From: Nitrospinota bacterium
Lineage (GTDB): Bacteria; Nitrospinota_A; UBA7883; JACRLM01
NCBI GenBank assembly: GCA_016208975.1
Contig: JACQXA010000001.1
Location: 127,834 to 191,833, forward strand
DNA length: 64,000 nucleotides
Direction: 5' to 3'
Made by a program: the position numbers and the translations under genes. Positions 6,343 through 42,461 of this stretch are shown piece by piece. Within the stretch, counting starts at the first letter, position 1, and each line of letters starts with the position of its first letter. The notes below the pieces were generated by a model. That model was given only the letters and a program-made list of their open reading frames with translations. It had not been told where the DNA came from and did not search any database.

Positions 6343-6438
6343 ATGTCATGCCGGACTTGATCCGGCATCCGGGCTTCTTTCCTTTCACATCGAGGCCATG
6401 ATCCCGGATAGGCGCTTTCGCCCCTTCCGGGATGACAT
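6343..6438. repeat. Palindromic intergenic repeat, family 2, copy 1
   Basis: The 96-bp imperfect palindrome has ends ATGTCATGCCGGACTTGATC and GATCCCGGA...CCGGGATGACAT. A second copy is at 16329-16422. It sits directly upstream of the metal-binding protein gene, and reading through it gives the false N-terminal extension of that gene. Confidence 0.8.
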
Positions 6439-6550: not shown

Positions 6551-7288
6551 ATGAGTGAAGCAAAACTACTGGCTGTGGTGGTAATGGCGGGGGGCAAAGG
6601 TGTTCGGATGAAATCCGAATTGCCCAAGGCGCTGGCCATGTTCAAAGGGCGTCCCATGCTTTCAAGCGTGCTGGACACAGCCAGGGCGCTGACGCCGGAT
6701 AAAATTGTGGTGATAGTTGGGCACAAACGCGAAGTTGTGATAGAAGCCGTAAAAGCCACGGACGTGGTTTTCGCCGCACAGGAGCCGCAACTGGGCACCG
6801 CCCATGCCGTGGCCCAGGCGCGGGAGGCGCTGGCCGGGTTTAAAGGAAGCGTGGCGGTCCTTTCGGCGGATGTTCCGGCCATAACCGTTGATACCCTGCG
6901 CAAACTGATTAACCTGCGGGAAACTGAAAACGCCGCCATATCCGTGCTGACCTGTGTTCTGGACAATCCGGCTTCTTACGGCAGGATAATCCGCGAGGGG
7001 AGCAGGGTTGTCGCCAATGTCGAGGCTAAAGACGCCACGCCGGAACAGCTGAAGATAAATGAAATAAACAGCGGCGTTTATGTGTTCGACGCAGGTTTCC
7101 TGTTCGAATCCATAACAAAGGTTGGGAACGAAAACGCCCAGAAAGAATATTACCTGACCGACCTTATCGCCATGGCGGTGAACGCCGGGCTGAAAGTATC
7201 TGCCCTGATAGCGGAAAATCCGGCGGAAACCCTTGGGGTGAACACGCTGGAAGACCTTCAGAAGCTGGAATCGGCCGCTGGAAGGTAG
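6551..7288 (+). CDS. N-acetylglucosamine-1-phosphate uridylyltransferase (GlmU N-terminal domain alone)
   Basis: At 245 residues this is the nucleotidyltransferase half of GlmU, which makes UDP-GlcNAc from GlcNAc-1-phosphate and UTP; no acetyltransferase domain follows. The signature is MAGGKGVRMKSELPKAL with Arg19 and Lys26 in place, followed by AAQEPQLGTAHAVAQA (uracil contact) and LSADVPAI (metal Asp). It also has NEINSGVYVFD and NAQKEYYLTDL, both typical of GlmU. The last codons run to the left end of fold-back element copy C, and the TAG stop is formed by the element's GTAGTG end. It is first in a run with three further hexosamine-pathway genes and a second GlmU-like gene, which suggests amino-sugar nucleotide synthesis for the envelope. 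Confidence 0.88.
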   Translation: MSEAKLLAVVVMAGGKGVRMKSELPKALAMFKGRPMLSSVLDTARALTPDKIVVIVGHKREVVIEAVKATDVVFAAQEPQLGTAHAVAQAREALAGFKGSVAVLSADVPAITVDTLRKLINLRETENAAISVLTCVLDNPASYGRIIREGSRVVANVEAKDATPEQLKINEINSGVYVFDAGFLFESITKVGNENAQKEYYLTDLIAMAVNAGLKVSALIAENPAETLGVNTLEDLQKLESAAGR

Positions 7289-7433
7289 TGTCCCAGTTTG
7301 AAAGTACAGGGGAGATTCTTCACTCACGCTCAGAATGACAATATAAAATCCGTTGATAACATAGTCATCCTGGGCGAAGCGCATGCGAAGTGAAGGATCC
7401 GTCTGTTACTTGAGATTCAAACTGGGACACCAC
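7285..7433 (+). repeat. Fold-back element, copy C, with 10-bp flanking direct repeat
   Basis: This is the full 149-bp element, from GTAGTGTCCCAGTTTGAA to TTCAAACTGGGACACCAC. It is flanked on both sides by CCGCTGGAAG (7275-7284 and 7434-7443), a perfect 10-bp direct repeat that looks like a target-site duplication. It lies between the uridylyltransferase gene and the next gene of the cluster. Confidence 0.9.
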
Positions 7434-7515: not shown

Positions 7516-8715
7516 ATGAAAGCTCTTGTATTGGCAGGCGGCAGAGGCGGGAACATGGCTCCCTTCTCCGAGACGCGCCCCAACCCCATGATTCCCGTGG
7601 CGGGGCGGTATGTTATCGATCACACTCTGGCGATGTTGAAGAACGCCGGGGTGAGCCATGTTTACATGGTCATCGGCCACAACAAGGAGAAAATAAGGGA
7701 ACACCTCACAAATAACCCGCCGCCTGGGATGTCCATGAACTTTGTGGACCAGGGCAAGCCCAACGGCATCGGCGGCGCTATATTAAAAGCCAAAGACAAA
7801 TTCGCCCCCGGCGACCATTTTCTGCTGGTTTACGCGGACACAATAACCACCAGCAACATATTCTCCGTAACCAACCAGACATACGGGTTGCATAACGAGC
7901 CTACGGCGGCCATCTGCCTTACGAAGTCATCGGAGAAATACGGCAACGTTTATCTTGGGCCCGACGCGAAGATAACAAGGATAATCGAAAAACCCAGCAT
8001 CCGCGAGGGCTTGGCCAACTATGTGCTGGCTGGGGTTTTCGTGCTACCGGCCACATTCTTCGACTATCTGCAAGCGGCCAAAGGCGACATGGAAACGGCG
8101 CTCAAGGCGCTGATAAAAAAACAATCCCTTCGCGCCTCCATCTGGGAGGACGATTGGCTGGATATGGCCTATCCGTGGGACGCGCTTACCGCCAACCGCG
8201 CGATAATGGACACCTGGAAGGACGCGCGGATACACCAAAGCGTTGCCCTTCAGGGCGCAAGCCTGAAAGGGCCTGTTTATGTGTCCGAAGGTGTGGAAAT
8301 CCGCCCCGGAGCGGTGCTGGAAGGCCCGGCCTACATCGGGCCGAACTGTTTTATCGGCCATAACGCCCTTGTCCGCCCATACACCTGTATCGGCGCCAAC
8401 AGCGTTATCGGCCATGGAACGGAGCTTAAGAACTGCATTCTTTTCTCCGGGGTGAAAGTGGGCGGCTTGTGTTTCATTGGCGACTCGGTGATAGGCGAGA
8501 ACGTGGACATCGGCGCGGGAGTGATGACCATAAACCAGCGGATGGAAACCAGGGACATCCGCGTGAAGATAGGAAAGGCCGCCATAAGCGCCGGGCTTGA
8601 AAAGCTGGGCGCGTTCGTTGGGGATGGGGCCGTGATAGGCGCCTCTAACACCATAGCCTCCGGCGTGGTGGTTGAGGCCGGAAAAGTAATCAACCACAAC
8701 TGTTCGGTAAAGTAG
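7516..8715 (+). CDS. GlmU-like two-domain protein with degenerate catalytic residues
   Basis: The protein is 399 residues: an N-terminal sugar nucleotidyltransferase fold (1-230) and a C-terminal left-handed beta-helix (about 240-399, with repeats such as IRPGAVLEGPAYIG and IGENVDIGAG). The layout matches archaeal-type bifunctional sugar-1-phosphate nucleotidylyltransferase/acetyltransferases. The nucleotidyltransferase signature reads LAGGRGGNMAPFSETRPNPM: the usual Arg is Asn13 and the usual Lys of the PK pair is Asn23. In the beta-helix, the catalytic His of GlmU (GHLTYLGD) is replaced by Gly317 (VGGLCFIGD). Neighbours at 6551 and 12597 keep these residues. It may be a regulatory or scaffolding partner, or act on another substrate. 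Fold assignment is firm; activity is doubtful. Confidence 0.8.
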   Translation: MKALVLAGGRGGNMAPFSETRPNPMIPVAGRYVIDHTLAMLKNAGVSHVYMVIGHNKEKIREHLTNNPPPGMSMNFVDQGKPNGIGGAILKAKDKFAPGDHFLLVYADTITTSNIFSVTNQTYGLHNEPTAAICLTKSSEKYGNVYLGPDAKITRIIEKPSIREGLANYVLAGVFVLPATFFDYLQAAKGDMETALKALIKKQSLRASIWEDDWLDMAYPWDALTANRAIMDTWKDARIHQSVALQGASLKGPVYVSEGVEIRPGAVLEGPAYIGPNCFIGHNALVRPYTCIGANSVIGHGTELKNCILFSGVKVGGLCFIGDSVIGENVDIGAGVMTINQRMETRDIRVKIGKAAISAGLEKLGAFVGDGAVIGASNTIASGVVVEAGKVINHNCSVK

Positions 8716-8745: not shown

Positions 8746-10569
8746 ATGTGCGGCATAGCGGGCATTGTTGCCCTTCAAAACGTTTCAGACAAACTGGTCA
8801 GGTCCATCGGAAGGCTTGAATACCGCGGATATGACTCCTGCGGTATCGCGCTTATAAACGGAACGGGCAAACCCGTCACCCGCAAAGACGTGGGGCCGGT
8901 GGACGAGGTCAAGGACAAAGAGAAGTTCTGGGAGTTGCATGGCAACGTGGGCATCGCCCACACGCGCTGGGCCACCCATGGCGGGGTCACCAAGGCAAAC
9001 GCCCATCCCCACAGCTCCTGCGACGGAGCGTTCACCATCACTCACAACGGCATCATATCCAACTACGCCCAGATCCGCGCAAAGCTGGAGAAGAAAGGGC
9101 ACAAGTTCGTCTCCCAGACCGACACGGAGGTGATTGTCCATCTGATCGAAGAGGCTTACACCCGCGCAAAATCGGTGGAAAAAGCTTTCGTGACCGCTTT
9201 GGGCGAACTGGACGGTACATACGCCGTGGCGCTTATAACCGCCCACGAGCCGGACAGGATATATTGCGCCCGCAAGGAAAGCCCGCTCATCATCGGCCTC
9301 GGTTCAGATGAGAACTACATCGGGTCGGACTTCAACGCGTTCATCGAGCATACCAAGTCCGCCGTGATAATGGACGACCATGAGTACGCCATCGTCACCC
9401 ACGACGCCTATGTCGTGAAAAAGTTTCCCACCGGCGAGCCGGTATCCAAAGAGGTGCAGGAGATATTGTGGGACTCGGAAATGGCCCAGAAAGGCGGTTT
9501 CCCCCATTACATGCTCAAGGAGATTTACGAACAGCCGCAGGTGGTGACCAACGCCATGGACATAGACGCGGAGAGCATAAAAAAGCTGGCCCGCGCCATC
9601 AGCGAGAAAAAGAATTTCTATCTTACCGGCGTTGGCACCACGTTCTATGTGGCCCAGTTCGCGCAGTATTATTTCAGCGCCTATGCGGGGGTTACGCCCA
9701 GCCTGGTATCGTCGGACGAGTTCCGGTTCCTGGCCAACGTGGACAAGGACACCATCGCCATAGCCACCTCCCAGTCCGGTGAGACTTACGACACGCTGGC
9801 GGCCCTGCGCCACGCTAAAAACTGCGGCGCCCAAACAGCCGCCGTGGTGAACGTGATGGGCAGTTCGATGGCGAGAATGGTGGACCATCTCATTTTGCAG
9901 GGATCCGGCCCGGAGATATGCGTTATAAGCACTAAGGCCGCGCTGGCCCAGATGGTAGTAATGGCGAGGCTGGCGTTGAGCCTGGGTGTCCAGCGGGGGC
10001 ATATAAAACCGGCGGACCTGGCCAGGCACGAAAAGGAGCTGAGAGACCTGCCCAAGGTGATAGAAAAGATCATCAACGAGAAATCGGGCATAATCCACAA
10101 CATCGCAAAAGAGCAAAGCCACATAAAGCACTGGCTCTACCTGGGCCGGGGCAGGTATTACCCCATCGCCCGGGAGTCGGCGCTGAAAATGAAAGAAGTG
10201 GCCTACGTGCACGCCGAGGGAATGCCCAGCGGCTTCCTGAAACATGGAACCATCGCGCTGATAGACGATGATCTAAACTCGGTGGTCTTTGTGCCGCCCG
10301 AGGAAGACGCGGAGCTTTACGAGCTTACCCTTTCTTCCGCCGAGGAGATAAGGGCGCGCAACGGTTATACGCTGGGCATCGCTTTCGAGTCGAAAAAACC
10401 CAGGAAGCTCCCATTGAGCGACCAGATAATATTGCCCAAAACCCCCATGTTCACGGCTCCGCTTCTGGAGCTGTTGGTGGCCCAGCTTTTCTCCTACTTC
10501 GCGGCCACAACGCTAAAACGGAACGTGGACAGGCCCCGGGCCCTGGCCAAGTCGGTTACTGTCGCATAG
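8746..10569 (+). CDS. glmS: Glutamine-fructose-6-phosphate aminotransferase (isomerising)
   Basis: At 607 residues it has the normal length for GlmS, which makes glucosamine-6-phosphate from fructose-6-phosphate and glutamine in the cytoplasm. Cys2 is the N-terminal nucleophile of the glutaminase (MCGIAGIVA), with HTRWATHGG and HNGIISNY. Two SIS sugar-isomerase domains follow: TSQSGETYDT binds the sugar phosphate and ESALKMKEVAYVHAEG holds the catalytic Lys and Glu. KHG keeps the catalytic His, and DRPRALAKSVTVA is the C-terminal loop with the Schiff-base Lys. The segment before KHG reads GFLKHG where most bacterial enzymes have GELKHG. No glmS ribozyme is visible in the 30-base gap upstream. 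Confidence 0.97.
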   Translation: MCGIAGIVALQNVSDKLVRSIGRLEYRGYDSCGIALINGTGKPVTRKDVGPVDEVKDKEKFWELHGNVGIAHTRWATHGGVTKANAHPHSSCDGAFTITHNGIISNYAQIRAKLEKKGHKFVSQTDTEVIVHLIEEAYTRAKSVEKAFVTALGELDGTYAVALITAHEPDRIYCARKESPLIIGLGSDENYIGSDFNAFIEHTKSAVIMDDHEYAIVTHDAYVVKKFPTGEPVSKEVQEILWDSEMAQKGGFPHYMLKEIYEQPQVVTNAMDIDAESIKKLARAISEKKNFYLTGVGTTFYVAQFAQYYFSAYAGVTPSLVSSDEFRFLANVDKDTIAIATSQSGETYDTLAALRHAKNCGAQTAAVVNVMGSSMARMVDHLILQGSGPEICVISTKAALAQMVVMARLALSLGVQRGHIKPADLARHEKELRDLPKVIEKIINEKSGIIHNIAKEQSHIKHWLYLGRGRYYPIARESALKMKEVAYVHAEGMPSGFLKHGTIALIDDDLNSVVFVPPEEDAELYELTLSSAEEIRARNGYTLGIAFESKKPRKLPLSDQIILPKTPMFTAPLLELLVAQLFSYFAATTLKRNVDRPRALAKSVTVA

Positions 10570-10581
10570 ATTTTATTGGCA

Positions 10582-12600
10582 ATGAGGCTTCAGGGTACAG
10601 ACGGCGTAAGAAGGCAGGCCGTACTGTCGTCAAGCCCGCTGGTGGCCGGTCTTTCGCCGCAAAAAGCTTTCCTGGAAAAAGATGTAATCACCGAACAGTT
10701 CGTGGAACTCTACGCCTATTGCAGGGCCCGCCAGCTTTTGGAGAATGGCGTGGCGGCGGGAGAGTTTATGGTGGTCGGATGGGATCCGCGCGACCCCTCA
10801 GGCGCATTCACGGGCGCGGCGGTATCCGGCGTTTTAAAAGCGGGGTTGAACGTCCACTCCATAGGGGTAATGCCCACTCCGGCCATTGTTATATACATGC
10901 GCTCCGTGAACGCGGCGGGGGCGCTGGTGATAACCGCGTCGCACAACCCGGCCTCTTATAACGGGATCAAGATATTCACCCGCCACGGATTTAAACTTCT
11001 TCCGGGCGATGACGACATATTGAGCGCGAAAGTGTTGTGCGCCAGGTTTTCCGCTATTGCCGAGTTAGAACCTGCCGGCAAACTGGAAGAACGCCGGGCC
11101 GAAGCTGTGGAAGTGTTCACCCGGTTCTCGATAAATCCCGCCAATAGCTGGATAGGGAGTAGCGAAGCTGTCTCCAAAACCATCCTTGTGGTGGATTGCG
11201 CCAATGGAGCATTTTCCGGCATCGCCGCGCCTGTCTTTGAGAAGGCCGGTTTTGGAAAAGTGGTGGAGGCCAACGCCAGTCTGGACGGGAATATCAACCT
11301 GCGGTCGGGCGTGGCGGACATTGAAGGGTTGCATGAAATAACTCCGGAGATGTTGGAACCGAAAGGAAGGCTGAACGGCTATTCCGCCGTAACCGCCGTT
11401 TTAGAACTCGGCAGACAATACGCTGAAGATATAAAGTCCGGCATGAAACATGTGTCCGGCGCTGTTTTCGATGGCGATGGGGACCGCCTGTTCCGGCTGG
11501 ATTATGACCCCTTCACCGATTCCATTATTGTCCTTTCCGGTGACGAGCTGGCCATACTTCAAGCCCGCCATCGCGCTGAAAAGGACCGTGGCAAACAGTT
11601 CGTCAACAGTGTGGAGAGCGATCTTAACGCCGCAGGCGAGGCTGTGCGGCTGGGATTCACCACCGAGCTAACCGCCGTGGGGGACAAATGGATATTGCTT
11701 TCAGCCCAGGTTGCGGCACTGCGCCCCACCGCCCCGGCGGAGGCCATGCGGGCCATAGAAGCAAATATCAGCAGGGATGATTTGAGCGCCGACTTCATAG
11801 AAAAAACCATGTCGGAAAATGGATTGGAGTTCTGCCAGCCATCCGAATGCGGGTTTGCCGTTGGAGCCGAAGAGAGCGGCCATTCGATAATTCCAGGCGT
11901 TGTGGACAGCTCGGGAAAATCAATCACGGTTTTTGCGGGCAACGGGTTGAAAGGGGCGCTCAACGCTTTTGCGGCCACAGCCGGGCTTACCGGGTCAATC
12001 ACCGCCAAAGAGATTTTCAACCTGTTGCGCTCCCCTTTTCCCGCCGGGTTCAAGAAAACCATGTACGTTTATTATGTGGAGAAAACCCGGTGGAAGCGGG
12101 GCGCGGCGCTTTGGGAGGATGTAAAAAAAACCGTGACCGCGCAAATGGCGCCGATCCTGCCGGACATGGGCCTTGAAGAGATGGTCCGCCCCGAAGAGCC
12201 AGACATGCTTTATATGAAAATCACACGCGGCGGCGCGCATGTGGCGTCCCTGTTCATCCGCAACTCCGGCACCGAAGATAAGACCGGCGTGAACCTTCGC
12301 GGCCCACAGGAACTGGCCCAGGCATTGCTGGAGCTAGGTGAAACCGCCGTAAGGCTGATAATTGAAGGCATGAAAGACGGGGATAAACGGTTTGCGATAG
12401 CCGAACGGAAACTTATTCTGGCCGCCGCCGATGGCGGTGTTCCCCAATCGCCTGTCATGGGGCTTGGGGGCGATGAGTACCATCGCCTGCTGAATGAAAC
12501 GGCCAACAAACAATATATGCTGACGGGAGCTTACGCCGGGGCCGGGCTTACCGAGCGCGGGTTGTGGTATCTTGAACTAATTAAACGGGGGATGTCTTGA
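10582..12600 (+). CDS. Long phosphohexomutase (probable phosphoglucosamine/phosphomannomutase)
   Basis: This is an alpha-D-phosphohexomutase of 672 residues from ATG (an in-frame TTG lies six bases earlier). All four family motifs are present: LQGTDGVRR at the N-terminus, the phosphoserine loop VITASHNPASYNG (Ser near 120), the metal loop VFDGDGDRLFRL (near 297), the sugar loop GAEESGH (near 430) and the phosphate-binding IRNSGTEDKTGVNLRGP (near 560). Bacterial GlmM is about 445 residues, so this one carries insertions and about 90 extra C-terminal residues ending in a helix-rich stretch (DEYHRLLNETANKQYMLTGA) that resembles a small winged-helix domain. Its place after glmS makes glucosamine-6-P to glucosamine-1-P the likely reaction. 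The stop overlaps the next start. Confidence 0.85.
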   Translation: MRLQGTDGVRRQAVLSSSPLVAGLSPQKAFLEKDVITEQFVELYAYCRARQLLENGVAAGEFMVVGWDPRDPSGAFTGAAVSGVLKAGLNVHSIGVMPTPAIVIYMRSVNAAGALVITASHNPASYNGIKIFTRHGFKLLPGDDDILSAKVLCARFSAIAELEPAGKLEERRAEAVEVFTRFSINPANSWIGSSEAVSKTILVVDCANGAFSGIAAPVFEKAGFGKVVEANASLDGNINLRSGVADIEGLHEITPEMLEPKGRLNGYSAVTAVLELGRQYAEDIKSGMKHVSGAVFDGDGDRLFRLDYDPFTDSIIVLSGDELAILQARHRAEKDRGKQFVNSVESDLNAAGEAVRLGFTTELTAVGDKWILLSAQVAALRPTAPAEAMRAIEANISRDDLSADFIEKTMSENGLEFCQPSECGFAVGAEESGHSIIPGVVDSSGKSITVFAGNGLKGALNAFAATAGLTGSITAKEIFNLLRSPFPAGFKKTMYVYYVEKTRWKRGAALWEDVKKTVTAQMAPILPDMGLEEMVRPEEPDMLYMKITRGGAHVASLFIRNSGTEDKTGVNLRGPQELAQALLELGETAVRLIIEGMKDGDKRFAIAERKLILAAADGGVPQSPVMGLGGDEYHRLLNETANKQYMLTGAYAGAGLTERGLWYLELIKRGMS

Positions 12601-13415
12601 GATTCGCCGAATATTTCACGGAAAACAACCAGTTCAGGTTTATAGACCATGTGCGGAGCGGGGAGCATCCGTGGTCGGCCCTGGTGGACATCAAGAAACT
12701 TATCACCAGGGAAACCGGTAGCATAGAGGATTCCGGAATTTCCAAACTCAAGGATTCCATCCGGCTAGACAAGGTGACATCACTCCATGGCGAAGTGAAG
12801 GAAACGGCGCTTTCCGTAATAAAATCCATCGTGCTCCCCCACCCTATCCACATAAGCTCCGCTGGAATCCTCATTGAAGAGGGTGTTTATCTTGAATACG
12901 GCGCCATCATAAAAGCCCCGTGCATCATTATGAAGAACACCGAGATCCGCCAAGGCGCTTATCTTCGCGGCGACGTTATTATCGGCGAGGGGTGCGTTGT
13001 TGGCCATGTGTCGGAGGTGAAAAATTCCATATTCATGGATCATTCCCACGCGGGGCATTTCGCTTATGTGGGGGACTCCATTCTTGGAAGCCATGTGAAC
13101 CTTGGGGCCGGAACCAAGCTGGCCAACCTGCAATTCCGCACCCGTGGTGAGATTGAAACCGACGCGTTGGGAGTAATCGTTATCCGGTCTGGCGATGGCT
13201 TAATAAACACGGGTCTTTACAAGCTGGGGGCGGTCATCGGCGATTACACGGAGATTGGATGCAACACTGTAACCTCGCCGGGGGTATGCGCCCAATCGGA
13301 TTGCTGGATATACCCCAACACCACCGTTCCCAAGGGTTTTTATCAGAGGAAGAGCATTATTCGCGCCCGGGGCGCTGGAGTGGTGGATGTATCCTCGCGG
13401 CCAGATATTCCATAA
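12597..13415 (+). CDS. Beta-helix acyltransferase, probable glucosamine-1-phosphate N-acetyltransferase
   Basis: The protein has 272 residues and starts at TTG overlapping the mutase stop (TTGA), implying translational coupling. After about 85 residues of unclear fold comes a left-handed beta-helix of hexapeptide turns (ILIEEGVYLEYGAIIKAPCI, IRQGAYLRGDVIIGEGCVVG). The segment MDHSHAGHFAYVGDSILG matches the active-site turn of the GlmU acetyltransferase domain and keeps the catalytic His (His154); VNLGAGTKLANLQF follows as in GlmU. There is no nucleotidyltransferase domain. With GlmS, the mutase and the separate uridylyltransferase this would complete UDP-GlcNAc synthesis. The exact acceptor is inferred from context. 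Confidence 0.8.
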   Translation: MRFAEYFTENNQFRFIDHVRSGEHPWSALVDIKKLITRETGSIEDSGISKLKDSIRLDKVTSLHGEVKETALSVIKSIVLPHPIHISSAGILIEEGVYLEYGAIIKAPCIIMKNTEIRQGAYLRGDVIIGEGCVVGHVSEVKNSIFMDHSHAGHFAYVGDSILGSHVNLGAGTKLANLQFRTRGEIETDALGVIVIRSGDGLINTGLYKLGAVIGDYTEIGCNTVTSPGVCAQSDCWIYPNTTVPKGFYQRKSIIRARGAGVVDVSSRPDIP

Positions 13416-14934: not shown

Positions 14935-15504
14935 ATGAGAAAGCCTTTTGCGGCCATTACCGCCATATTGATGACCGCTTCTTTGGCCATGGCAGAGGTA
15001 TCCAAAGAAGAAGCGGTGGAAAAATCCAAAGAAATGGTTAAAGAACTTGGTGGCTCCCTTAAGGGCAAGTTGCAGGAGACCGTGAAAGAATCAGGCTTCA
15101 CCGCGGCAATAAACGTGTGCAAAGAGATAGGGCTTACCAGGGCAAAGCAAGTTGGGGCCAAATACAACGCTTCCATCCGCCGGGTATCGGTAAAAAACAG
15201 GAACGCCGCAAATGTTCCTGATGATTATGAAGCCGCCGTATTGAATAAAATGGAAAAAGACAAGGCGGAAGGAAAGCTTCAGGAAGCGTATGTGGAAGTT
15301 GTATCCACAGGCGGCAAGAAGAACCTGAGGTTTATGAAACCGATAATCACCGAGGCCCTATGCCTTAACTGCCATGGCACGGCGGACAAGTTGAATCCTG
15401 AAGCGGCCCAGGCCATAAAAGCGAACTACCCGGACGATAAGGCCACCGGATATGGCGCGGATCAACTGCGCGGGGCCTTCTCGGTAGTGTATCCGCTTTA
15501 CTGA
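14935..15504 (+). CDS. Periplasmic heme protein of the Tll0287/DUF3365 type
   Basis: It is 189 residues, with signal peptide MRKPFAAITAILMTASLAMA. The mature part begins with a charged helical region (22-75), then the conserved pattern ASIRRVSVKNRNAANVPDDYEA and a single c-type heme site CLNCH (Cys143, Cys146, His147) before a C-terminal GAFSVVYPLY. This order is that of the DUF3365 (Tll0287-like) domain, thought to be a PAS-like heme sensor or redox protein. Here no signalling domain is attached, so it is a free periplasmic form. The following gene encodes an exported thioredoxin that could help cytochrome maturation, though a fold-back repeat separates the two. Confidence 0.82.
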   Translation: MRKPFAAITAILMTASLAMAEVSKEEAVEKSKEMVKELGGSLKGKLQETVKESGFTAAINVCKEIGLTRAKQVGAKYNASIRRVSVKNRNAANVPDDYEAAVLNKMEKDKAEGKLQEAYVEVVSTGGKKNLRFMKPIITEALCLNCHGTADKLNPEAAQAIKANYPDDKATGYGADQLRGAFSVVYPLY

Positions 15505-15511
15505 AAAAGTG

Positions 15512-15653
15512 GTAGTGTCCCAGTTTGAAAGTACAGGGGAGATTCTTCACTTACGCTCAGAATGACAATATAAAAGCCGTTGATAACATTGTCATCCTGG
15601 GCGAAGCGCAAGCGAAGTGAAGGATCTGTCTATTATTTGAGATTCAAACTGGG
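15512..15653 (+). repeat. Fold-back element, copy D
   Basis: The left end is intact (GTAGTGTCCCAGTTTGAA); the right end is cut short at TTCAAACTGGGA, 10 bases before the next start codon. Reading through the element extends the thioredoxin gene frame falsely upstream to 15580. Confidence 0.88.
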
Positions 15654-15663
15654 AAGATTGCGA

Positions 15664-16248: not shown

Positions 16249-16500
16249 TAATGGTTCGTGGCTCGGCAAGCTCGCCATGACAATGGCAGGGAAGGATTCC
16301 AAGGGATAACACGTAGGATGGCGGGAAGTTGTCATGCCGGGCTTGATCCGGCATCGGGGCTTCTTCCATTCCCCGTTGAGGCCCTGATCCCGGCTCTCGT
16401 TATCACTTGGCCGGGATGACAAATGGCGCTCCGCTAGATGTTTTCCACCTCGGACAGCGGGAATTTCATGGTTCGACGGGCTTGCCATGACAGGCGACAG
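16249..16500. repeat. Repeat-rich gap after the thioredoxin gene
   Basis: This 348-base space between converging genes (16165-16512) holds family 2 copy 2 and two short related pieces, ATGGTTCGTGGCTCGGCAAG at 16251 and ATGGTTCGACGGGCTTGCCA near 16469, which resemble dispersed REP-like segments. No gene or terminator with a T tract is seen. Confidence 0.6.
16329..16422. repeat. Palindromic intergenic repeat, family 2, copy 2
   Basis: This 94-bp imperfect palindrome, TTGTCATGCCGGGCTTGATC to CCGGGATGACAA, is the partner of the copy at 6343-6438; the ends match and the loop region differs. Confidence 0.8.
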
Positions 16501-19029: not shown

Positions 19030-19099
19030 TAAACTTGCCTGTAATTTCAACAAATTATAATGAATTGTCCGGTCTCACGTCAAGGTTTTAAGATAGTCG

Positions 19100-19248
19100 G
19101 TGGTGTCTCAGTTTGAATCTCAAATAATAGACAGATCCTTCACTTCGCTGGCGCTTCGCTCAGGATGACAATGTTATCAACGGCTTTTATATTGTCATTC
19201 TGAGCGTAAGTGAAGAATCTCCCCTGTACTTTCAAACTGGGACATTAC
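19100..19248 (-). repeat. Fold-back element, copy E (reverse)
   Basis: It is 149 bp with ends GTGGTGTCTCAGTTTGAA and TTTCAAACTGGGACATTAC. Flanks AAGATAGTCG and CCGATAGCCC share GATAG, perhaps an eroded target duplication. It sits between fbp (downstream end) and the YbgF-like gene start. Confidence 0.88.
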
Positions 19249-22281: not shown

Positions 22282-22872
22282 ATGGCTGGCGAAAAACCCG
22301 GGCTTCTGCTCCACCTGTGTTGCGCCCCGTGCGTGCCTTATGTGGTGGAGACGTTGCGGGAAGAATATGAAGTAACGCTTTATTTCTACAATCCCAACAT
22401 CCACCCGGAAACGGAATATATGGCGCGTCTTACCGAGGTGCGACACCTGGCCAGGCTGTACAGACTGCCGCTAGTCGAGGATGAATATGTTTCCGCCAAG
22501 TGGTTCAACGCGGTAAAAGGCCTGGAAAACGAGCCGGAACGGGGCGCGCGTTGCTCTGTATGTTTCGAAAAAAGGCTGGAGAAAGCCGCCGAGACCGCCG
22601 CCAGGATGAAGCTGGAATGCTTCGGGACGGTATTAAGCGTTTCGCCCCATAAAGACGCGGCGGTAATAAACAGGATAGGCGCTAAAACCGGCGAAACGCA
22701 CGATGTTAGCTTTCTGGAAGCGGACTGGAAGAAAAAAGAGGGATTCAAGAAAACCGTGGAGATCGGGAAAAACCTGGGCCTTCATCGCCAGGACTATTGC
22801 GGCTGTATCTTCAGCCTTAAATCCGCGATAGAGCGAAAGCAGAATTCCTCCAGCCACCAAAATAACGGGTAG
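22282..22872 (+). CDS. queH: Epoxyqueuosine reductase QueH
   Basis: The 196-residue protein performs the last step of queuosine tRNA modification, reducing epoxyqueuosine, by the QueH (DUF208) route rather than the cobalamin enzyme QueG. It has the conserved cysteine sets: LHLCCAPC (Cys13, Cys14, Cys17), RGARCSVCFEKRLEKA and RQDYCGC, which bind an Fe-S cluster and a second metal. The N-terminal half is a nucleotide-binding HUP-like fold (YFYNPNIHPETEY). The final codons (NNG) and TAG stop are formed at the junction with fold-back element copy F, so the natural C-terminus may be altered. Confidence 0.93.
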   Translation: MAGEKPGLLLHLCCAPCVPYVVETLREEYEVTLYFYNPNIHPETEYMARLTEVRHLARLYRLPLVEDEYVSAKWFNAVKGLENEPERGARCSVCFEKRLEKAAETAARMKLECFGTVLSVSPHKDAAVINRIGAKTGETHDVSFLEADWKKKEGFKKTVEIGKNLGLHRQDYCGCIFSLKSAIERKQNSSSHQNNG

Positions 22873-23017
22873 TGTCTCAGTTTGAAAGTACAGGGGAGAT
22901 TCTTCACTTACGCTCAGAATGACAATATAAAAGCCGTTGATAACATTGTCATCCTGAGCGAAGCGCAAGCGAAGTGAAGGATCTGTCTATTATTTGAGAT
23001 TCAAACTGAGACACCAT
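22869..23017 (+). repeat. Fold-back element, copy F
   Basis: A full-length 149-bp copy, GTAGTGTCTCAGTTTGAA to TTCAAACTGAGACACCAT. Flanks CAAAATAACG (22858-22867) and CAAAACAGCG (23018-23027) agree at 8 of 10 positions, consistent with a diverged target duplication. Confidence 0.9.
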
Positions 23018-34661: not shown

Positions 34662-34691
34662 ATGCCATCCTTCATCTTTACCCTTGCTGGG

Positions 34692-34839
34692 GTGGTGTCC
34701 CAGTTTGAACATCAAATAATAGACAGATCCTTCACTTCGCTTGCGCTTCGCCCAGGATGACACTGTTATCAACGGCTTTTATATTGTCATTCTGAGCGTA
34801 AGTGAAGAATCTCCCCTGTACTTTCAAACTAGACATTAC
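34692..34839 (-). repeat. Fold-back element, copy G (reverse)
   Basis: It is 148 bp, from GTGGTGTCCCAGTTTGAA to TTTCAAACTAGACATTAC. Flanks CCTTGCTGGG and CCTTGAGGCA share the first five bases. It separates the Xre gene terminator from the LuxR-type gene. Confidence 0.88.
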
Positions 34840-42206: not shown

Positions 42207-42313
42207 TGGCCAACTCCTATCCATGGAAAACAGCTCCCTCGCCAAGAGCTTTTTCGCTCTAAAGATTTATATTATCGGAAGCCGTTAACCGATGCAATCG
42301 CATACAATCGCAG

Positions 42314-42461
42314 GTAGTGTCTCAATTTGAATCTCAAATAATGGACAGATCCTTCACTTCGCTTGCGCTTCGCTCAGGATGGCAATGTTATCAACGGCTT
42401 TTATATTGTCATTCTGAACATAAGTGAAGAATTTCCCCGTACATTCAAACTGGGACACCAC
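42314..42461 (-). repeat. Fold-back element, copy H (reverse)
   Basis: It is 148 bp, from GTAGTGTCTCAATTTGAA to ATTCAAACTGGGACACCAC. Internal arms have several changes compared with other copies (TGAACATAAGTGAAGAATTT), so this may be the oldest. Flanks share only CAAT. Confidence 0.86.

Follow-up and report, generated by a model that had tools for sequence, protein, structure and literature searches.

Why would a bacterium keep a protein with the two-domain plan of GlmU, without the catalytic residues of either domain, among intact enzymes of the same pathway? The question arises from a stretch of 64,000 nucleotides of a Nitrospinota genome (assembly GCA_016208975.1, contig JACQXA010000001.1, positions 127,834 to 191,833), which is referred to below as the window and whose own numbering is used throughout. 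Almost all bacterial cell walls depend on UDP-GlcNAc, and the control of its synthesis is known in few species only. In the amino-sugar pathway to the wall, GlmS catalyses the first step and GlmU the last. Nitrospinota and their allies are poorly known marine and groundwater bacteria.

As read from open reading frames and profile matches, the protein under study, hereafter P, is encoded second in an operon-like run of five genes on the + strand. The first gene (6551..7288) encodes a single-domain uridylyltransferase of the GlmU type (UT), which matches only the N-terminal half of the GlmU equivalog profile TIGR01173 (247 bits) and in which the catalytic Arg19, Lys26 and Asp107 are intact, these being conserved in a 61-row alignment. 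P itself (7516..8715) is followed by GlmS, the glutamine--fructose-6-phosphate transaminase (8746..10569; TIGR01135, 638 bits), with an intact Cys nucleophile in its MCGI motif, and by a diverged phosphoglucosamine mutase of 674 amino acids recognized by its PGM_PMM domains (GlmM-like; 10576..12600). The latter reaches 128 bits against TIGR01455, under the cut-off and mostly over the N-terminal part; it is oversized and very diverged, yet ASHNP, DGDGDR and RNSGTE motifs can be found in it. The last gene (12597..13415) encodes a separate beta-helix acetyltransferase (AT), identified by profile and alignment, with an intact His154. The intergenic gaps are 227 nt (UT-P), 30 nt (P-GlmS) and 6 nt (GlmS-GlmM-like), and the start of AT overlaps the stop of the GlmM-like gene by 4 nt. 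Neither a glmS ribozyme nor any other known RNA from Rfam was found between 5 and 16 kb of the window, and only one GlmS is present in the genome to which the window belongs.

Several dispersed repeats can be found in and around the operon. A 151-nt repeat has five copies in the window, with 80-96% identity to the reference copy (399-669, 7277-7427, 15504-15654 and 22861-23011), one of which takes up the larger part of the UT-P intergenic region. A 140-nt repeat is present in three copies of 87-96% identity (19099-19238, 34691-34830 and 42313-42452), and a 64-nt repeat in two copies of 86% identity (6344-6407 and 16330-16393), one lying just upstream of UT.

The open reading frame of P is genuine: it starts with ATG and encodes 399 amino acids, with a nucleotidyltransferase domain (about residues 1-230) and a left-handed beta-helix (about 240-399). 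The protein matches TIGR03992, an archaeal-type family named 'bifunctional sugar-1-phosphate nucleotidylyltransferase/acetyltransferase', over residues 1-398, i.e., over the full length of the profile, with 306.2 bits for a cut-off of 292.1. It scores 108.4 bits against TIGR01173, below the cut-off of 366.85. The predicted model (pLDDT 92.9) displays the nucleotidyltransferase and left-handed beta-helix folds, and its best match in the PDB is a liganded structure of ST0452 (5z0a, TM about 0.86); ST0452 of Sulfolobus tokodaii (2ggo) is also the nearest solved sequence. Structures of GMPPA/GMPPB and of AGPase are also found among the fold matches. In the preliminary description, the flanking proteins were regarded as intact single-domain copies. 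They do keep Arg19 and Lys26 (UT) and His154 (AT), as confirmed by direct reading, but they are not copies of P, UT being the N-terminal half of a GlmU, AT a separate beta-helix acetyltransferase and P a member of TIGR03992.

In GlmU, the catalytic residues are R18, K25 and H363. The preliminary description had placed Asn13, Asn23 and Gly317 at the corresponding positions of P, and these three residues read exactly as claimed (codons 7552..7554, 7582..7584 and 8464..8466, + strand). By alignment with ST0452 (2ggo), they stand for R13, the Arg of the GxGxR loop, K23 and the catalytic H308. The list of losses was correct as far as it went but incomplete, since three further active-site changes had been overlooked, namely Thr80 of ST0452 to Ile85 (7768..7770), Asn157 of the N-A-G motif to Leu171 (8026..8028) and Tyr311 to Phe320. 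Also identified on the + strand by alignment are the metal-site Asp108 (7837..7839), which is invariant, a second metal-site Asp216 (8161..8163), which is kept save in one lineage, and the conserved acetyltransferase-pocket residues Arg287 (8374..8376) and Lys305 (8428..8430). The bifunctional activity in the NCBI model name is contradicted by the residues of P.

Regarding the conservation of these losses, one scan of a genome collection yielded 80 orthologous loci, 78 of them with a readable N-terminus. By the titles of the metagenome-assembled genomes, most belong to Nitrospinota and a few to Nitrospirae, Tectomicrobia, Binatia, Cloacimonetes and Deltaproteobacteria. Arg13 is found in none of the 78 orthologues from other species and His317 in none of the 80 loci, position 317 being mostly Arg across the family, with Gly or Ser in a few members of the window's order. 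The losses at 13 and 317 thus recur in all orthologues read, the exact residue varying, and the same state of loss in dozens of independent assemblies rules out a sequencing or frame artefact. The order to which the window belongs typically has Asn in place of Lys23; elsewhere Lys23 is mostly kept or replaced by Ile. At the same loci, the Arg and Lys of UT are kept in 59/59 cases and the His of AT in 17/17. Among 56 non-redundant P sequences, position 13 ranks at the 75th percentile of variability and Q79, D108, E158, K159, N168, W214, R287, E303 and K305 are invariant. The other changes are family-wide or nearly so (in ST0452 numbering, Thr80 to Ile/Val, Asn157 to Leu/Phe and Tyr311 to Phe). 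Replacement catalytic residues, which would have pointed to an active enzyme, were sought in the alignment: nothing replaces the His, and Arg10, common in the window's order (8/9), occupies a position that varies elsewhere, so that compensation by Arg10 for the lost Arg13 is unsupported outside that order. In one Nitrospinaceae MAG (L086, 2182-3414), P is split into two adjacent open reading frames by a stop or an assembly error, the gene being otherwise conserved.

Low dN/dS values of 0.03-0.11 were obtained for P (simple Nei-Gojobori estimates on ten close pairs, one locus being used twice); they are lower than those of UT in 9/9 comparable pairs and similar to those of GlmS. Random decay into a pseudogene is ruled out by these values and by the invariant pocket residues, and P is almost certainly kept for a real function. 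In a tree with ST0452-type proteins, P forms a single clade with a support of 100/100. The catalytic His is present in 6/6 outgroup rows and in 0/78 rows of the P family, and, since it is missing from every P and kept in every outgroup row, its loss is placed on the stem of the family. Two separated sets retain Arg13, namely the genomes G099/G385 and the families f260/f261, all without UT. In these two families (L255-L300), Arg13 (in a few members Lys or Gln) and Lys23 are mostly present, and the GGxGxR loop has Asn or Ala for its first Gly in many members. The sequences document a stepwise decay, in which the acetyltransferase His was lost first, then Arg13 and then Lys23. Arg or Lys at 13 together with Lys23 is found in 23/28 rows without UT and in 0/37 rows with UT, the presence of UT being taken from the gene neighbourhood for rows known from a contig only. 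Such a pattern would be expected if a dedicated UT had freed the nucleotidyltransferase site to decay, and it is retained as a lead. While the raw table is striking, a paired phylogenetic test of UT presence against Arg13 loss was not significant, with too few independent changes, and a phylogenetically independent link between the two was dropped.

Which enzymes, then, accompany P, and which gene follows it through genomes? A fused GlmU above the cut-off was found in none of the 49 P-bearing genomes tested, and a single-domain UT in 17 of them. A separate AT is present in 21/22 P-bearing genomes, the exception being an incomplete assembly, with its His in 20/20 of those read. It lies in the P operon in the window and in many relatives, and far from P in many other genomes. 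For the window, P as the sole acetyltransferase or uridylyltransferase is ruled out, the operon containing intact UT and AT. In contrast to UT, which is directly upstream of P at 56/88 loci, glmS directly follows P on the same strand at 86/90 loci with enough sequence, and P directly precedes glmS at 19/19 further loci from other families. P and glmS remain paired even when a lineage lacks UT or carries it elsewhere in its genome. Because GlmS is the constant neighbour, it is favoured over UT as the target of P.

Some genomes without UT encode a UDPGP-type enzyme closest to eukaryotic UDP-glucose pyrophosphorylases; such eukaryotic-type enzymes in bacterial lineages without a GlmU-type UT can be found at L219-L224 (genomes G372, G102, G243, G099, G241 and G385). 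When two of them were compared with solved structures, one was nearest to animal, plant and fungal UDP-glucose enzymes and the other to trypanosomatid ones. A role of UDPGP as the UDP-GlcNAc pyrophosphorylase of these genomes was considered and not adopted, its best solved relatives being UDP-glucose pyrophosphorylases. In f260/f261, the tested members yielded no UT and no UDPGP, save for a weak partial match in G429.

Of the two roles put forward in the preliminary description, i.e., a pseudoenzyme that regulates or scaffolds the pathway or an enzyme with a new substrate, the former is well supported as regards the pseudoenzyme, by the conserved losses in both domains, strong purifying selection and the separate intact enzymes of the operon. 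P is very probably non-catalytic, as judged from its residues. The favoured explanation, which we hold at about even chances, is that P is a dead member of the ST0452 fold kept as a sensor of UDP-GlcNAc synthesis, binding a UDP-sugar and feeding back on GlmS. Catalysis would be left to GlmS, the GlmM-like mutase, AT and UT. The nucleotidyltransferase pocket of P, which has kept the metal Asp residues and several contacts to sugar and base, would probably bind a UDP-sugar (UDP-GlcNAc); the beta-helix site, in which the His is replaced and Arg, Lys and Asn are kept, possibly holds an anionic ligand. The state of the ligand would be relayed to GlmS as feedback control, in a manner similar in function to GlmR but by an enzyme-derived protein. 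Action on GlmS through a UDP-sugar, taken by itself, is put a little below an even chance. Since the changes of Thr80 to Ile and Asn157 to Leu/Phe alter expected uridine and sugar contacts, the ligand may not be UDP-GlcNAc, and the linkage of P and glmS may reflect membership of the same pathway only.

Inactive nucleotidyltransferases with a regulatory function are already a known kind of protein, and a regulator or scaffold role for P is consistent, by analogy, with the near-universal linkage to glmS and with the precedents of GMPPA, the large subunit of plant AGPase, GalF and GlmR. P shares with ST0452-type proteins (TIGR03992; 2ggo, 5z09 and 5z0a) its full-length fold, domain order, length and most pocket residues. 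It differs from them by the absence of Arg13, Lys23 and His308, by the changes at Thr80, Asn157 and Tyr311, and by its location in a glmS operon that also encodes separate active enzymes. With bacterial GlmU (TIGR01173), it shares the two-domain plan and the pathway; unlike GlmU, it falls under the cut-off and lacks the catalytic Arg, Lys and His, and the two activities of GlmU are attributed to separate proteins. GMPPA (fold match 7d72) is also a dead nucleotidyltransferase with a beta-helix, accompanied by an active enzyme of its pathway; as there, the catalytic residues of P are lost in a gene under selection next to an active enzyme. GMPPA is inactive, binds GDP-mannose and inhibits GMPPB (PMC11228364). 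It is closely paralogous to GMPPB and its regulatory role is proven, whereas the partner and ligand of P are putative. The catalytic-loop Lys is lost in P as in the large subunit of plant AGPase, where it is Thr in potato (PMC2529307); the latter forms a heterotetramer with a close paralogue and has no acetyltransferase ancestry. In Escherichia coli GalF, the same GxGxR loop is lost, GLGTR being replaced (Met-His) with strongly reduced activity, and GalU given the GalF residues has a Vmax about three orders of magnitude lower (PMC4643126). Unlike P, GalF has no beta-helix, is a paralogue of GalU and has a role that is still debated. GlmR is not of the GlmU fold. In Bacillus subtilis, GlmR (YvcK) stimulates GlmS and UDP-GlcNAc blocks this stimulation (PMC7525490); P is proposed likewise, from its genomic linkage to glmS, as a UDP-GlcNAc-responsive protein acting on GlmS, and the two are analogous at most.

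Could P instead act on UT, as the modulatory subunit of a mixed complex in which UT is the active member and P the dead one, comparable to plant AGPase, whose small subunit is active and whose large subunit is modulatory, or to GMPPA/GMPPB? The position of UT immediately upstream at 56/88 loci, the absence of Arg/Lys13 with Lys23 from all 37 rows with UT and its presence in 23 of the 28 without, and the GMPPA/GMPPB and AGPase fold matches all speak for it. Yet P and glmS stay together without UT or with UT elsewhere in the genome, UT is the N-terminal half of a GlmU, from a different subfamily and without the beta-helix used in subunit mixing, and its association with P is built on few independent changes in a paired test that was not significant; such a complex is considered unlikely. 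Active sites of beta-helix acetyltransferases form between subunits, a fact that counts for another partnership, in which P and AT build mixed trimers with Arg287, Lys305 and Asn340 given by P and the His by AT. The remaining pocket residues of P are invariant and AT shares its operon in the window and many relatives, but AT has a full set of pocket residues of its own, is only about 34% identical to the beta-helix of P and is encoded at a distance from it in many genomes; this reading is rated very improbable.

The remaining alternative is that P has stayed enzymatic: its chemistry may be altered, its substrate may be another sugar nucleotide or acceptor, or it may retain a low uridylyltransferase activity like GalF, which has lost the loop and still shows measurable activity (PMC4643126). 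The two metal Asp residues are conserved along with E158/K159, the new pocket residues Ile85, Leu/Phe171 and Arg317 are themselves fixed, and in two related families most members have Arg13/Lys23 and neither UT nor UDPGP. However, position 13 is unconstrained in the clade of the window, Lys23 is also lost in the window's order and no general base stands in place of the His. A new substrate is less likely for the P of the window because both transfer residues are lost, and an altered enzyme is rated slightly below the UT complex. As Arg13 or Lys13 persists together with Lys23 in some relatives, the nucleotidyltransferase domain may be an enzyme there, possibly with a new substrate, and relatives with Arg13 are natural controls for the decay series of P.

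With regard to novelty, nothing on GlmU pseudoenzymes or on GlmU of Nitrospinota was found in the open-access literature, subscription journals lying mostly outside the search. What appears new is a bacterial case that is widespread, has lost function in both GlmU domains and is linked to glmS, and for which no counterpart was found in that literature. That a family spread over many phyla is linked to glmS and very strongly selected, yet devoid of catalytic residues, points to an undescribed mode of control. P is probably a sensor or regulator mislabelled as an enzyme in databases, and the label 'bifunctional enzyme', which is corrected here, would lead reconstructions of the pathway astray in Nitrospinota and their allies.

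In a sister class, a second GlmS paralogue lies directly before P (L051, L054, L065, L078, L165, L307, L308, L313, L319, L326 and L328), with 34-37% identity to the GlmS of the window where compared. Its nucleophile Cys is replaced by Ser (MSG instead of MCG) and the other glutaminase motifs are kept, so that it is a probable pseudo-glutaminase, by its motif. A broader and rather doubtful extension of the favoured explanation would be a regulatory layer made of decayed pathway enzymes, in which dead P would sense UDP-GlcNAc and control GlmS together, in the sister families, with the second GlmS carrying the Ser nucleophile.
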